Source of the DNA: Micromonospora inyonensis
GTDB taxonomy: Bacteria; Actinomycetota; Actinomycetes; Mycobacteriales; Micromonosporaceae
Direction of reading: 5' to 3'
Assembly: GCF_900091415.1 (NCBI RefSeq)
Contig: NZ_FMHU01000001.1
Coordinates: forward strand, 1,984,001-2,048,000
DNA length: 64,000 nt
The notes under the pieces were generated by a model. That model was not told where the DNA came from and searched no databases. It saw nothing but the letters and a program-made list of their open reading frames with translations. The translations under genes were made by a program, and so were the position numbers. Positions 4,595 through 28,617 of this stretch are shown here, piece by piece; position 1 is the stretch's first letter, and each line of letters begins with the position of its first letter.

Positions 4595-5420
4595 TCAGGT
4601 GGCGCGGGCGACCACCACGAATTCGCCGTCCCCCGCCCCGACGGGCTCATTCCGGCACCCGCCACGAACCCGCTCGACGACGAACCCGCGTGCCCGCAGG
4701 GAGGCGCGGAGCCGGGCCTCGGTCCGGAACCGCAGGGTGGCCGAGCTGAGCAGTTCCGGGCGGGTGTCCGCGGGCGGTGCATCGGCTGGTGGCGGGAAGA
4801 GGTAGTGGTGGGTGAGGGTGACCAGGTCATCGCGGATCGCGGTGACCTCGGTCCATGCCTCGACCGTGCGGCCGTCCGGCAGGCGTGGATGACGTCGTGA
4901 GTCGACCGGGTTCCACCGTTCCCAGCGCCGGTCGGCCGGGTCGCGCGAGTCGAAGACCAGCCGCCCGCTCGGTACGAGCGCCCGGTGGAGGTCGGTGAGG
5001 ACGGCGTCCCACTCCTCGTCGGTGACGAAGAACTGGGCGACGTGGCTGGTCATCAACGCTATGTCGAAGGACCGGTCGGGCAGGACGGTGGCGGTGCCCT
5101 CGATCCAGGTCACCCGGTCCGCACCCGTTTGGCGCGGGCGGCGTCCAGCGAGGTGCGGGCCGGATCGACGCCGGTGACCTGGTGCCCGGCGGCGGCCAGG
5201 GCCAGGGTGAGCCGCCCGGTGCCGCAGCCCAGGTCGAGGACACGAACCTGCGGCCGCACACCGCCGGGGATACGGGCCTGGGGCGGCACGTCGCCGAGGA
5301 CACGGGCCTGCGCTGTCTCGTCGACCACGGTGAGGAAGAAGTCGTCGTCCGGCCCCCATGGGCACTCGGCGTCGTGACCGGGACGAGCCTGGGATCCTCG
5401 AACTCCCCGTGTCGCATCAC
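4595..5420 (-). pseudogene. Frameshifted class I SAM-dependent methyltransferase
   Basis: Three frames together give one normal methyltransferase: MRHGEFEDPRLVPV from 5417/5420, then DAECPWGPDDDFFL and motif I VLDLGCGTGRLTLALAAAG with motif II VDPA, then VTWIEGTA...FDIALMTSHVAQFF and LHRALVPSGRLVFDSRD to the stop at 4595. The first break (near 5375) lacks one base after GTC; the second (near 5118) lacks one G in ACGGGTG, where relatives would read AKRGADRV. The C-terminal half alone lacks the SAM-binding loop and should be inactive. The GGGGG upstream of GTG 5420 may be the ribosome binding site. Substrate unknown. Confidence 0.75.
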
Positions 5421-5490: not shown

Positions 5491-5709
5491 TTACTTCTCG
5501 GCGACGAAGACGCCCCGCCCCGGCCGCCCGATCAGAATTCCCCGCCCGCGCAGGGTGGCCACAGCGCGGTGGATCGTCGAGTGCGACAGGTCGTAGTGGG
5601 CTGAGAGCTCCCGGGTGGACGGCAGTTGCGAGCCGGACTGGAACTCGCCGTTCTCGATCCGACGAAGGATGTCGGCGAGCAGCTCGTCCATGGTGGGTGG
5701 AATCGGCAC
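5491..5709 (-). CDS. Short GntR-type winged-helix regulator (module copy 1)
   Basis: A 72-residue protein that is only a GntR DNA-binding domain: MDELLADILRRIENGEF, QSGSQLPSTRELSAHYDLSH, STIHRAVATLRGRGILIG and RPGRGVFVAEK. There is no effector domain, so it may respond to dimer partners or concentration only. GTG 5709 is preceded by AAGGGG at a good distance. It is a paralogue of the 73-residue protein at 28396 and, like that one, is divergent from a DivIVA-like gene. Short GntR proteins of this kind (KorSA-like) are known from actinomycete integrative elements. It probably represses its own divergent promoter region. Confidence 0.85.
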   Translation of the reverse strand: MPIPPTMDELLADILRRIENGEFQSGSQLPSTRELSAHYDLSHSTIHRAVATLRGRGILIGRPGRGVFVAEK

Positions 5710-5724
5710 GTCGAGGCCCCTTGA

Positions 5725-5897
5725 GGTCGGTTGGCACCACCAGTATCGATCACCGTTTCGTGACGGAGCAACCACAAGGAGCAAGGGGGTGAGGAGGGCG
5801 ACAAAAGAAGAGGGAAGCCAGGAGGGAAGCGTTGACGGAGATTGTAGCTCTGAGTAGAGTTGTCGTCGCGATGCGACACCGGCGGTCGGTTGGCACC
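5725..5897. promoter_or_regulatory. Divergent promoter region with a 14-bp direct repeat
   Basis: GGTCGGTTGGCACC occurs at 5725-5738, next to the GntR start, and again at 5884-5897, 159 bases away. The space between is unusually purine-rich (AAAAGAAGAGGGAAG). Two identical sites in the shared upstream region suit a regulator that binds both and loops or bridges. The rest of the 330-base gap (5710-6041) shows no gene. Operator function is inferred. Confidence 0.45.
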
Positions 5898-6041
5898 TCT
5901 TGTACGGACTGTCATCAGCGAACTCCACGTAGCTGCCCTGTTCGGGGTGGTCGTCACTTCCCCCGGCCGACCGCCCGCTCCCCCGGGATCGGGGCGGCCC
6001 TGTCGTCGCGCGCGGCTCGACGCCGTGCACGGCAGGGCGGG

Positions 6042-6413
6042 GTGTCCCGTCCGGACCCGAACCAGCAGGGGCACCCCCAAAAACCGCTCACCCCGGACCG
6101 CATCCGGGACCATCGCTTCACCACCCGCCGCCGGGGACTCGACCCCGACGAGATCGCCGCCTTCCTCGCCCGGGTCGCCGACGAACTCGCCGTCGCCCGG
6201 ACCGCCCTGACCGACGCCCGAGCGCTCACCCAGGTCACCGGGTGCGTGGACGCCGGTGAGGTGACCGTCTCCCAGGAGGACGCCCAGGGCGTACGGCACC
6301 GGGTGTTCTGCGACCGGCTGCTGCCCGGCGGCGGCCGGTGCGCGCTGCCCACCGAGCACAGCGTGCCCTGCACCGCCCGGCGGCGGCGGCCGAATCCGGA
6401 CCGGTTCCGCTGA
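6042..6413 (+). CDS. DivIVA-like/Cys-rich fusion protein (module copy 1)
   Basis: A 123-residue protein whose first half carries a DivIVA-type segment (FTTRRRGLDPDEIAAFL, ARVADELAVARTAL). The second half is the Cys-rich domain EVTVSQEDAQGVRHRVFCDR followed by GGGRCALPTEHSVPC. In the second module at 27.4-28.0 kb these two parts are separate overlapping genes; here they are joined at ARALTQVTGCVDAGEV, as if about 60 codons had been lost in frame. C-x9-C-x5-H-x3-C spacing is the same in both copies and could bind zinc. GTG 6042 is the likely start but its GGGCGG is very close; upstream starts are possible. Function unknown. Confidence 0.7.
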   Translation: MSRPDPNQQGHPQKPLTPDRIRDHRFTTRRRGLDPDEIAAFLARVADELAVARTALTDARALTQVTGCVDAGEVTVSQEDAQGVRHRVFCDRLLPGGGRCALPTEHSVPCTARRRRPNPDRFR

Positions 6414-6478: not shown

Positions 6479-7651
6479 TCAGAGCGCCGCTGCGTACATC
6501 TGCTCGAAGCTGTTCCGGTACTGCTGGTAGACCGAGCGGATGTTGGTCCGCACCATCGCCTCGTCGTTGCGACGCAACGAGGTCTGGTTGAAGTTGGGGC
6601 TGCCGGTCAGCACCCAGCGGGCGTCGGTGTCCCCATCGACGTTCCCCTCGACCAGCAGGTACTTCGAGTGGATCCGGCCGGGCAGGACGTTGGCCGAGTC
6701 CAGTTCGCGCAGGGCGATGTTGGGGTGCGCGGAGAGCACGGTGCGCACCTCGTCGGCCATGAGACCGTGCACGATGCGGACCTGGCAGCCCTGTCCGGCC
6801 AACTCCACCAGCCGCTGCGCGATCGGCAGGCGGTAGGTGTCCCACTCCGACATGCCGATCCGGATGGTGGCCGCCGTCGTGCAGCCCACCTTGGCCAGGT
6901 GGTCGATTACCGGGTCGCCCTCGACGCGAGGGAAGAAGTAGGCGGTCACCGAGCCACCCGGCATCCCGGTGGTCACCGTGTCGTCGTGGTGGTCGGCGTG
7001 CTGCTCGGCGGCCAGTTCCCCGAAGTAGCGGTCGTACGCCGCGTAGAGGCGGCGATTCTCGACGAAGGTGACCGCGTTGTTCCAGTACGTGCGCGAGTTC
7101 AGGTCGGTGAAGTTGGCCGACGACTGGAGCACCACGTCGGACCGGCCGCCGGTCTCGGAGAAGAGGTAGAACTTGTTGTGGTTCCCCTTGGTGCCGAGGC
7201 AGGAGGCGGTGTTCCCCTCCGGCGAGAGCCGGGAGCAGACGTGCAGGAACGAGGGCGCCGAGCGGTCGGTGCCGAACTCGGCGCGCAGTGCCTCGACCGC
7301 CGGGTTGGGAACCTGCCAGCCGTCCAGCACGAGTTGGACGTGAACACCGCGCTGGTGGGCGGCGACCAGTTCGGTGGCGAAGTCGAGCCCCGCCTCGCCG
7401 GAGACGACGAAGTGGGCGATGCGGATCCGGGAGCCGGCGGGTGCCTGCTTCACCAGGTTGCACACCTGGCGTACGACGGCGGTCGGATCCCCGGCAGCCG
7501 GGTTGTTGAAGACCGCGCCGGTTCGCACCGGTACGACGGCGGCGTCCCGGCACGGGCTGGTGCCGTCGGCGGCGGTGGCGGTGGCCGCTGGCATCGTCAC
7601 CGCGGCCACCGCCGCGAGGAGTGTGGGCGCCAGCACTGAGGTGGCACGCAT
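6479..7651 (-). CDS. Secreted phospholipase D-like protein
   Basis: A 390-residue protein with a Sec signal peptide (MRATSVLAPTLLAAVAAV, cut near ATATAADG) and two half-sites of the phospholipase D superfamily: HNKFYLF at residue 158 and HSKYLLV at 328, each followed by the usual SSANFTD and GSPNFNQ segments. Both HxK pairs are kept, so it should form an active phosphodiesterase fold outside the cell, acting on phospholipid or nucleic acid. ATG 7651 has GGAAGGA upstream at the right spacing; earlier in-frame starts lie before the signal peptide and are unlikely. Several cysteines suggest disulphides. It stands alone. Confidence 0.9.
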   Translation of the reverse strand: MRATSVLAPTLLAAVAAVTMPAATATAADGTSPCRDAAVVPVRTGAVFNNPAAGDPTAVVRQVCNLVKQAPAGSRIRIAHFVVSGEAGLDFATELVAAHQRGVHVQLVLDGWQVPNPAVEALRAEFGTDRSAPSFLHVCSRLSPEGNTASCLGTKGNHNKFYLFSETGGRSDVVLQSSANFTDLNSRTYWNNAVTFVENRRLYAAYDRYFGELAAEQHADHHDDTVTTGMPGGSVTAYFFPRVEGDPVIDHLAKVGCTTAATIRIGMSEWDTYRLPIAQRLVELAGQGCQVRIVHGLMADEVRTVLSAHPNIALRELDSANVLPGRIHSKYLLVEGNVDGDTDARWVLTGSPNFNQTSLRRNDEAMVRTNIRSVYQQYRNSFEQMYAAAL

Positions 7652-27067: not shown

Positions 27068-27325
27068 ATGGGCCGTATCACCAAGACCCTGCTCGCCACC
27101 ACCCTGGCCGTCGGTGGGATGTTCGCCGCTGCCGCCCCGGCCTCGGCCAGTGGGGACCTGGTGGACGTCACCGTCGGTGACGTCGTCGTCCTGAACGACG
27201 TCGAGGTCGACGTGGCCGCCGCGGTCTGCGGGATCGTCGACGTGAACGCGCTGATCGAGCACCTCAACCAGCACGGCGAGGCCGACTGCCTGGACATCCT
27301 CGGCGGCAAGATCGTCAAGAACTGA
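27068..27325 (+). CDS. Small secreted protein
   Basis: An 85-residue protein with a clear signal peptide (MGRITKTLLATTLAVGGMFA, cut after APASAS). The mature part is short, acidic and Val/Asp-rich (DVTVGDVVVLNDVEVDVAA) with two cysteines (AAVCGIVDV and EADCLDILG) that could make one disulphide. It resembles the small secreted beta-rich proteins found beside chaplins in actinomycetes, but chaplin motifs are missing, so I do not name it. ATG 27068 follows GAGAGGGGA. Strong promoter, long upstream gap and strong terminator suggest high, regulated expression. Confidence 0.75.
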   Translation: MGRITKTLLATTLAVGGMFAAAAPASASGDLVDVTVGDVVVLNDVEVDVAAAVCGIVDVNALIEHLNQHGEADCLDILGGKIVKN

Positions 27326-27424: not shown

Positions 27425-27703
27425 TCAGGGCCGCCGGTGCCGGGTCGGACCGGATCGGGCGCAGGGTGCGAGGTGGTCGGTGGGCAGGGTGCACCGGCCC
27501 CCGCCGGTCAGTTGCCGGTCACAGAAGACCCGATGCCGTACGCCCTGGGCGTCCTCGGTCGAGACGGTCACCTCTCCGGCGTCGATCCGTGTGGTGAGCA
27601 GAGCGAGGGCGCGCGTGGCGGTGCGGGCGAAGATCCGGGCGCGGCTCAGGTCGGGTACGACGACCGGCACGTGGATCACCCATCGTTCCTCGGACGCGGT
27701 CAT
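27425..27703 (-). CDS. Cys-rich small protein (module copy 2)
   Basis: A 92-residue protein. The first 38 residues (WVIHVPVVVPDLSRARIFA...) look like a small fold of their own; the second half is the conserved EVTVSTEDAQGVRHRVFCDR then GGGRCTLPTDHLAPC. The spacing C-x9-C-x5-H-x3-C equals that of the fusion protein at 6042, so a metal site is plausible. Its ATG overlaps the stop of the DivIVA-like gene by four bases, which means coupled translation. No known family can be named; function unknown. Confidence 0.75.
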   Translation of the reverse strand: MTASEERWVIHVPVVVPDLSRARIFARTATRALALLTTRIDAGEVTVSTEDAQGVRHRVFCDRQLTGGGRCTLPTDHLAPCARSGPTRHRRP

Positions 27704-28017
27704 CGCTGGTCCCGGGCGGTCGGGCGCAGGGCGTACGTGGTCTGCCAGTCGCGGAGCGCGTCCTTGATCCGTTTGTTCTCGTCGAGGACGGCGTCCAGCG
27801 CCGTCTGCGCGACGGCCAGTTCGTCGGCGACGCGGTGCAGGAACGCGCGTATCTCCTCCGGGTCGAGCCCGTGGCGGCGGGTGGCGAAGCAGCGGGCGCG
27901 GACCTGCCAGGGGCGCAACGGTCGGTATGCGGACGGTGGGGCCGCGTTGACGGGGTGCCGGTACGCCGGCCGACGCCGATGCTGCCGGCCGAGCAGGCGA
28001 CGCAGGAGTGTGCGCAT
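27700..28017 (-). CDS. Short DivIVA-like protein (module copy 2)
   Basis: A 105-residue protein. A basic N-terminus (MRTLLRRLLGRQHRRRP) precedes the segment CFATRRHGLDPEEIRAFLHR, which resembles the start of DivIVA/Wag31-type domains (F...GYDP.EVD.FL), and a helical VADELAVAQTALDAVLDENK run likely to form a coiled coil. True DivIVA proteins are far longer. ATG 28017 is supported by position and by the paralogue at 6042. It is the first gene of a two-gene operon divergent from a short GntR regulator. A role in polar growth is only a guess. Confidence 0.75.
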   Translation of the reverse strand: MRTLLRRLLGRQHRRRPAYRHPVNAAPPSAYRPLRPWQVRARCFATRRHGLDPEEIRAFLHRVADELAVAQTALDAVLDENKRIKDALRDWQTTYALRPTARDQR

Positions 28018-28290: not shown

Positions 28291-28341
28291 CAATGCAAAC
28301 CATGCAAAGTGCAAGGCTGAGTATGGTTACCACGCAAAGTG
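28291..28341. promoter_or_regulatory. Repeated GCAAA boxes, candidate GntR operators
   Basis: CCATGCAAAGTG (28300-28311) and CCACGCAAAGTG (28330-28341) are direct repeats 30 bases apart, about three helical turns, with a further CAATGCAAAC at 28291. They lie in the 378-base space between the divergent DivIVA-like and GntR genes. Autoregulation is the likely role. The rest of that space shows no gene. Confidence 0.5.
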
Positions 28342-28395
28342 TTGGATGGCTGGTGGCGGCCATGGGAAGATCTTGGGGCCTACCAGGAGTTGCCC

Positions 28396-28617
28396 ATGCC
28401 CCGAGTCTCAGACCGTCAACGCATCGCCCAAGATATCCGTGACAAGATCGCCTCCGGCGAGTACGGACCCGGTGCGAAACTACCGACGTTGCGCGAGATG
28501 ATCGCGCAGTACGGCGTCTCGGCAGAGCCTGTCCGTTCCGCCCTGCTCATCCTCCAAGCGGAAGGTCTGGTGGAGGGGCATCAGGGCAAGGGCGTGTTCG
28601 TGGCCGACCGTTCCTGA
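28396..28617 (+). CDS. Short GntR-type winged-helix regulator (module copy 2)
   Basis: A 73-residue protein made only of a GntR winged helix: RQRIAQDIRDKIASGEYGPG, AKLPTLREMIAQYGVS, AEPVRSALLILQAEGLVEGH and QGKGVFVADRS. ATG 28396 has AGGAG seven bases upstream. It is paralogous to the regulator at 5491 and in the same divergent arrangement. With no ligand domain, it may simply hold the module at a set level. Confidence in the fold is high; targets are inferred. Confidence 0.87.
   Translation: MPRVSDRQRIAQDIRDKIASGEYGPGAKLPTLREMIAQYGVSAEPVRSALLILQAEGLVEGHQGKGVFVADRS

Follow-up and report, generated by a model that had tools for sequence, protein, structure and literature searches.

Small Micromonosporaceae cassettes in which an exchangeable regulator faces DivIVA-like and cysteine-rich payload proteins

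Two divergent loci and their relatives

The window, a 64,000-nucleotide stretch of the Micromonospora inyonensis genome, contains two loci (copies A and B; Table 1) at which a short GntR-type regulator stands divergent from a payload unit made up of a DivIVA-like part and a cysteine-rich (Cys) part. The original prediction had placed both arrangements at the right coordinates and had noted that the C-x9-C-x5-H-x3-C spacing is the same in each, which proved exact in the alignment. It had also taken the two payload parts to be separate proteins; this holds for copy B, in which the stop of the DivIVA-like gene and the start of the Cys gene share an ATGA (27700-27703), whereas copy A is one fused ORF, whose GTG start is predicted and uncertain. 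Compared with unfused relatives of its payload in other Micromonospora (the Cys proteins P0122-P0124 and the DivIVA-like protein P0131), the copy A fusion is incomplete in both parts, the Cys protein being without its N-terminal strand and helix and the DivIVA-like protein without its C-terminal part. The missing strand and helix may be a sign of decay, and among 26 database matches the fused form was represented by the copy A protein itself only. Both GntR proteins consist of a winged helix alone (Pfam GntR cut-off, 27), directly after which the ORFs stop, and the effector-binding domain is absent from both. The predicted payload promoter of copy A scored 9, which was matched in 0 of 200 shuffles.

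Table 1. Features of copies A and B in window coordinates
Feature	Position	Strand	Description
Copy A gntR	5491..5691	-	single-domain regulator, 66 aa; PF00392, 52.6 bits; ORF and codon score
Operator-like box 1, GGTCGGTTGGCACC	5725..5738	+	33 nt before gntR A start; box 2 is an exact copy
Predicted sigma70-type promoter, payload A	5832..5860	+	TTGACG 5832-5837, 17 bp, TAGAGT 5855-5860
Operator-like box 2	5884..5897	+	159 bp from box 1; about 24 bp downstream of the -10
Copy A fusion ORF	6042..6413	+	123 aa; DivIVA N-domain in frame with C-terminal part of Cys protein
DivIVA N-terminal domain, copy A	6087..6188	+	TIGR03544, 36.3 bits (cut-off 22)
C-x9-C-x5-H-x3-C motif, copy A	6309..6371	+	from alignment
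Copy B Cys protein	27425..27703	-	92 aa; no Pfam/NCBIfam family over cut-off
C-x9-C-x5-H-x3-C motif, copy B	27461..27523	-	spacing identical to copy A
Copy B DivIVA-domain mini-protein	27700..28017	-	105 aa; TIGR03544, 24.4 bits (cut-off 22)
Weak tandem repeat upstream of gntR B	28299..28343		12/15 identical, 30 bp apart
Copy B gntR	28396..28617	+	single-domain regulator, 73 aa; PF00392, 78 bits

Near copy A, a methyltransferase-like gene with Methyltransf_25/11 pieces lies in two frames on the minus strand (4595-5113 and 5110-5328), a split that we attribute to a frameshift or a sequencing error, and a PLD-like protein (6479-7651, minus strand; PLDc_2, 90.6 bits), secreted as judged by eye, is encoded convergently with the fusion ORF. 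Convergent with the Cys gene of copy B is the gene for an 85-aa protein that begins like a signal peptide and has no Pfam match (27068-27325, plus strand).

The idea of a two-copy module did not survive a search of the M. inyonensis genome with the copy B Cys protein, which recovered ten loci with E values of 1e-12 or lower, eight of them outside the window (six further rows, at E 0.2-0.6, were taken as noise); a profile search added one distant homologue beside a DUF397 gene (C2:200813). Contig C1 (3.29 Mb) carries all ten close copies, and C2 (3.60 Mb) carries none. In a draw of genomes from the family, Cys matches were present in 34 of 121 genomes and 13 of 44 genera, with some of the 34 genomes having weak matches only (E about 1e-4); DivIVA-like matches at E<=1e-6 occurred in 63/121, a count that can include other DivIVA-domain proteins. 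Across the class, 4 of 296 genomes had a Cys match, three of them from the same genus. The Cys protein had 777 relatives at E<=1e-3 and the DivIVA-like protein 224; nearly all of the named organisms among the 120 listed relatives of the latter were Micromonospora.

For comparison of gene neighbourhoods we used 80 named loci (79 from Micromonospora and one from Micromonosporaceae), picked by the patterns ED[EA]QGVRH and ER[FW]V[IVA]H[LV]P[VF], which are mutually related samples of one subfamily. At least 1000 nt of upstream DNA was available for 76 of them, the other four having too little. The set for conservation counts and for the tree comprised 84 sequences, namely 75 named and nine from our own genome, with the copy A fusion left out. 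Five named loci were dropped from it: L131, L133 and L134, which have a split or partial Cys match (3/80), and L119 and L132, which were removed solely by a script rule because more than one overlapping match had been recorded. The 75 named and nine own sequences fell into 37 clusters at 80% identity (23 GntR, 11 XRE, 3 unlabelled).

Some relatives are arranged in other ways. At L263 (genome G036) and L147 (G032), Cys and small GntR genes stand in close series, with up to three GntR genes consecutively at L147. Three genomes of one genus (L135:6266-6883, L138 and L149) retain a distant Cys homologue that is convergent with a DUF397 gene; at L135 and L138 its neighbour is a gene encoding about 840 aa. 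L139 comes from a different genus, and there the distant homologue has a divergent XRE gene on its other side. The convergent arrangement with DUF397 is perhaps an ancestral form.

Regulators, payloads and operator-like repeats

A divergent regulator was found in 75 of the 76 named loci, being a GntR in 46 and an XRE-DUF5753 protein in 29, and DUF397 accompanied the latter at 28 of the 29. The set of GntR, DivIVA-like and Cys genes that had been predicted to recur together is therefore looser than proposed, since XRE-DUF5753 replaces GntR in 29/76 and the DivIVA-like gene, present in 60/76, is missing in 16/76. By combination, 35 loci had DivIVA-like plus GntR, 11 GntR without DivIVA-like, 24 DivIVA-like plus XRE-DUF397, four XRE-DUF397 without DivIVA-like, one DivIVA-like plus XRE without DUF397, and one (L082) nothing. 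At the ten loci of our own genome, GntR faces five (copies A and B, L009, L012 and L015) and XRE-DUF5753 four (L010, L011, L013 and L016), each of these with DUF397 after it; the Cys locus L014 has neither a DivIVA-like gene nor a regulator, and the other nine have a DivIVA-like part upstream. The original prediction had set against itself the case that the Cys protein occurs mostly without the GntR or DivIVA-like gene, or that its cysteines are not conserved. Neither case arose in our sample: the DivIVA-like gene accompanied 60/76 and the cysteines were kept in 83-84 of 84 sequences; GntR was present at 46 of 76 named loci, and at five of our own ten. At L016 (7786-10435) the XRE-DUF5753 gene is broken and a gene that we judged by eye to be transposase-like lies between XRE and DUF397.

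The stop of the DivIVA-like gene and the start of the Cys gene overlap by four bases in 52 of 64 loci and by one base in nine of 64, in a count that used the nearest in-frame start and so favours overlap; we regard the payload genes as usually coupled in translation. On a quick tree of the Cys proteins, regulator type tracked the tree with four GntR/XRE changes, and presence of the DivIVA-like gene changed 14 times; the tree was built from 82 columns for 84 sequences and leaves many forks open, so these counts are rough.

Two more small payload families stand beside the same regulators in our genome, PWPC at 11 places and DFW at nine (PWPC, DFW and MTRF are labels coined in this analysis), and no Pfam or NCBIfam family scored over its cut-off in the members scanned. 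Payload units took the forms Div-Cys, Div-DFW, DFW-Div, PWPC-DFW, DFW-PWPC, PWPC-PWPC, and single DFW, PWPC or Cys. A census of the genome found a divergent regulator within 1.5 kb of 21 of 28 payload units (12 XRE and nine GntR), one of the nine GntR partners (C1:1669179) being a 218-aa GntR 1.4 kb off that is probably of another kind. When the 28 units were placed at random, 1595 of 2000 placements gave 0 and the maximum was three. The association of regulator and payload is thus far beyond chance. PWPC and DFW, unlike Div and Cys, were first noticed beside regulators, and their profiles started from such genes, which favours those two families. Input to the census consisted of 35 of 36 GntR rows, 27 DUF5753 rows reduced to 24 units by merging two and omitting two partial ones, 11 of 12 DivIVA-like rows (a row at E 0.07 omitted), and the ten Cys rows with the C2 homologue.

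The seven units without a divergent regulator were three PWPC, one DFW-PWPC, one DFW-Div with a GntR on the same strand, and two Cys genes, that of L014 and that of C2, the latter with a convergent DUF397 gene. DivIVA-like genes also stand with GntR or XRE where no Cys gene was detected (L136, L137 and L243-L249). The regulator is accordingly exchangeable between GntR and XRE-DUF5753, and the payloads mix too. At L193 (DFW payload) and L269 (Cys payload), a one-domain GntR gene is followed on the same strand by a DUF397 (BldB-type) gene, with the payload opposite. A 61-aa protein without a Pfam match, HTH-like by eye (L237:4252-4437, plus strand), faces a DFW-PWPC pair and is perhaps a third type of regulator.

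To look for operator-like repeats, we took the 260 nt nearest the regulator in 53 GntR and 32 XRE intergenic regions and compared the best 15-mer repeat there with 100 shuffles. A repeat matched in three or fewer of the 100 shuffles was found in 28 of 53 GntR regions, two of which (L067 and L068) have GC-rich repeats of another kind, the rest being copy A and 25 further regions, and in 0 of 32 XRE regions. A scan of the 6.92 Mb genome for the copy A box, GGTCGGTTGGCACC, gave two exact matches, both between gntR A and its payload, and nine sites with one mismatch (reversed control, seven). The L009 box, CTCCGGTTGGTTCGGC, likewise has two exact genome sites, both in the L009 intergenic region, so that copy A and L009 each have a private pair. 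One-mismatch copies of the L009 box occur at two places elsewhere (G000:C1:1454864 and C2:2462660; control, 0), which are possible further targets, so that the target set may be wider.

A pair of TCCGGTYGGTTCGGC boxes at 119-124 bp is common to eighteen loci (one with G for Y), and a single box of this type occurs in two more. Twelve loci, copy A and 11 named ones, share a pair with the shorter core GTCGGTTGGC at 151-180 bp. No further box was present in 194 and 118 kb of DNA from the 17 and 11 fetched loci of the TCCGGTYGGTTCGGC and GTCGGTTGGC types, respectively. Copy B, L012 and L015 lack a significant repeat of their own (equalled in 44, 46 and 41 of 100 shuffles), and the box model is therefore not general; the weak tandem repeat upstream of gntR B could be at most a possible operator. 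Self-regulation, as originally proposed, is consequently plausible for copy A, with its private operator-like pair, and has no significant pair behind it at copy B. The L136 repeat pair was significant (0/100 shuffles), and its box is related to that of L015. The GntR proteins of L015 and L136 are 60% identical and mutually nearest among the nine own GntRs compared, and their payloads differ, one locus having Div-Cys and the other Div-DFW; this would be expected if the box is the GntR site and regulator and box travel together. All winA-type loci (12/12) have a predicted promoter of copy A quality ahead of box 2. Such promoters were found in one of 18 own9-type loci, the score being not significant in the other 17, and in 14 of 33 loci overall.

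Properties of the payload proteins

The label DivIVA-like stands, as TIGR03544 scored over its cut-off in both copies; the Pfam DivIVA scores, 21.5 and 18.9 bits for copies A and B, are below the cut-off of 28. A profile of the DivIVA-like protein matched, among PDB sequences, DivIVA (7o39, E 3e-6; 2wuj, 7e-4), GpsB (4ug1, E 7e-6) and Wag31 (6lfa, 0.002). In the AF2 model of the copy B protein (mean pLDDT 79.7, about 90 or more in the domain; pTM 0.56), a short helix (36-40) precedes a long one (53-96), and the best Foldseek hit, though weak (E 2.8), was GpsB 4ug1. Judged from these sequence comparisons, we regard the relationship to DivIVA as real. The payload shares with the N-domain of DivIVA, GpsB and Wag31 an RG-x-D-xx-E-V/I core and the predicted short helix-loop-long helix, and differs from them in being about 105 aa long and basic, with a conserved ALRxWQ end and no long coiled coil. 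A DivIVA-like domain has been defined by the motif RGYDxxEVD with a coiled-coil helix after it (accessible text of PMC9858780); the long helix of the model, predicted at high pLDDT, agrees with the second part of this definition. At the positions of that motif in 56 payload sequences, R was found in 48, G in 56, Y in three (L in 44), D in 56, E in 51 and V/I in 56, so that the GY-based pattern, as given in the accessible part of that paper, would miss the payloads with Leu for Tyr (44/56).

The Cys protein is basic and of the C-C-H-C type, the four candidate ligands being conserved in 84/84, 84/84, 84/84 (His) and 83/84 sequences. That no named family covers it was borne out, in that no Pfam or NCBIfam family scored over cut-off and none of the 120 listed of its 777 relatives has a Pfam domain. 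Its structure model gave no clear Foldseek match, and neither a fold nor a sequence match was found among solved structures. The metal site suggested at the outset is plausible given the conserved ligands, even though the predicted structure resembles no solved fold that we found, and the protein probably binds zinc.

Large proteins are encoded after the payload at two loci: a 650-aa protein after Div-Cys at L011 (6520-8472, plus strand), overlapping its stop, and a 736-aa protein after a lone DivIVA-like gene at L241 (3607-5817, plus strand). Both begin with a cysteine stretch that is DnaJ-like as judged by eye, neither has a Pfam match at E<=0.01, and they are possible further payload partners.

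Possible mechanism, alternatives and known systems

We conclude that the loci form a real, widespread and unnamed module, a variant of the WhiJ-BldB type, of firm anatomy, in which both regulator and payload are exchangeable. As to what it does, we lean, by a modest balance of probability, towards a Micromonosporaceae variant of the WhiJ-BldB-IosA/AbaA module, in which the local regulator would repress its own gene and would control a DivIVA-domain adaptor and a probable zinc protein that tune tip growth or sporulation. The one-domain GntR would bind its two private boxes, perhaps with looping, and block its own promoter and that of the payload; we infer repression of both genes because one box closely follows the payload promoter and the other lies near the regulator's own start. 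As the GntR has no effector domain, its release would have to come from a partner, perhaps the Cys protein, or from loss or dilution of the GntR. The freed DivIVA-domain protein would then dock on the DivIVA/Scy/FilP scaffold of the tip or septum, a target suggested by its DivIVA domain, and would carry there the probably zinc-bound Cys protein, with the effect of braking or tuning tip growth or sporulation. Docking alone cannot account for the function, since 16/76 loci are without the DivIVA-like gene.

A broader reading, which we offer tentatively, is that of a combinatorial developmental network in Micromonosporaceae, in which exchangeable local regulators are combined with several small payload families and DivIVA payloads would feed many independent switches into the machinery of the hyphal tip or septum. 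Its regulators would be the one-domain GntR with a private operator pair, GntR with DUF397, and WhiJ-BldB; its payloads would be the DivIVA-domain adaptor and the C-C-H-C, W-x-C-x2-C-x3-WPC and unnamed ASVQF/DxWxW proteins.

The same cassettes could be read without any part in polar growth, the Cys protein sensing zinc or redox state and acting as co-regulator of the facing GntR or XRE in a metal/thiol switch, with the DivIVA-like gene as a passenger. We think this unlikely: the conserved C-C-H-C residues, a one-domain GntR without a ligand domain of its own, and the loss of the DivIVA-like gene from 16/76 Cys loci, with its 14 changes on the tree, would all suit such a switch, but a mere passenger would not be expected to be overlap-coupled in most of the loci that have it, nor to be found with GntR or XRE where no Cys gene was detected. 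Toxin-antitoxin or phage defence function, with the small regulator as antitoxin or autorepressor and the Cys or DivIVA-like protein as toxin, seems to us improbable. The cassettes are small and multi-copy with overlapping payload genes, and XRE-DUF397 pairs were proposed to be type II toxin-antitoxin systems (PMC2701414 and PMC7159879, accessible parts), but 14 such pairs overexpressed in S. coelicolor showed no type II behaviour, according to the accessible text of PMC10364602. Moreover, in 75/76 named loci the payload is encoded on the strand opposite the regulator, PADLOC gave no match beyond one chance-level row (a Cas10 model, E 0.023, with the copy B DivIVA-like protein), and one Cys member used as query had no match in 72,556 plasmid and 50,697 phage records. 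That the loci are decaying relics of a lineage-specific duplication, with no present function, is very improbable in our opinion. Individual loci do look damaged, as in the truncating fusion of copy A, the broken XRE and transposase-like gene of L016 and the three split or partial Cys matches, but the residues are near-invariant over 84 diverged sequences, and overlap, boxes and, in the winA type, promoters are conserved.

Members of the GntR family have a C-terminal effector-binding domain. The regulators of copies A and B are like that family in their winged helix, which scores over the Pfam cut-off; unlike it, the proteins of copy A, copy B and L009 (66, 73 and 86 aa) are a DNA-binding domain only, and a private repeat pair accompanies those of copy A and L009.

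In Streptomyces, WhiJ-BldB loci are present as many paralogues per genome, with XRE (WhiJ) and DUF397 (BldB) adjoining a small payload gene, iosA or abaA; at whiJ9/iosA, regulator and payload are apparently read toward opposite sides, and the WhiJ9 intergenic region contains direct repeats (accessible text of PMC10294661). The same text reports that loss of BldB raises expression of iosA and five abaA genes, that overexpressed iosA and abaA6 block sporulation and together mimic a bldB mutant, and that bldB was among the first bld genes found, its biochemical function being still unknown. WhiJ loci have been proposed as possible developmental brakes (PMC4255298, in part). The sign of control may differ between the two systems, since WhiJ9 is an activator of its payload (PMC10294661, in part), whereas the GntR is proposed as a repressor from box position alone. 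Among the open-licence papers that our searches found, no title or abstract start described a Div-Cys payload or GntR replacing WhiJ-BldB.

The combination of XRE-DUF5753 and DUF397 by which WhiJ-BldB loci were recognized was found at L010, L011, L013 and 28/76 named loci, and, disrupted, at L016. In copies A and B the regulator is a GntR and no DUF397 lies nearby; they are therefore a GntR variant rather than strict members. What the comparison adds is a payload with a recognizable target, the DivIVA/GpsB-type domain, in a WhiJ-BldB-like layout, and several branches in which a simpler regulator and a short private repeat replace WhiJ-BldB. The question of what such cassettes switch, and how, thus becomes testable, given one small protein and a 14-bp site. 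Many parallel cassettes may tune polar growth in sporulating actinomycetes, and the family is well suited for studying possible controls on growth and sporulation in these filamentous bacteria.

The original prediction of a small system of its own is right in that the system is local and recurring, and needs amendment in that the layout, with a small payload divergent from the regulator, resembles the whiJ9-bldB9/iosA locus of Streptomyces as described in the accessible text of PMC10294661. In contrast to that locus and its direct repeats, repeats were detected here, by the 15-mer test, at GntR loci only; and unlike WhiJ-BldB loci, the cassettes have Div-Cys as their payload, with a one-domain GntR taking the place of WhiJ-BldB in 46 of the 76 named loci.
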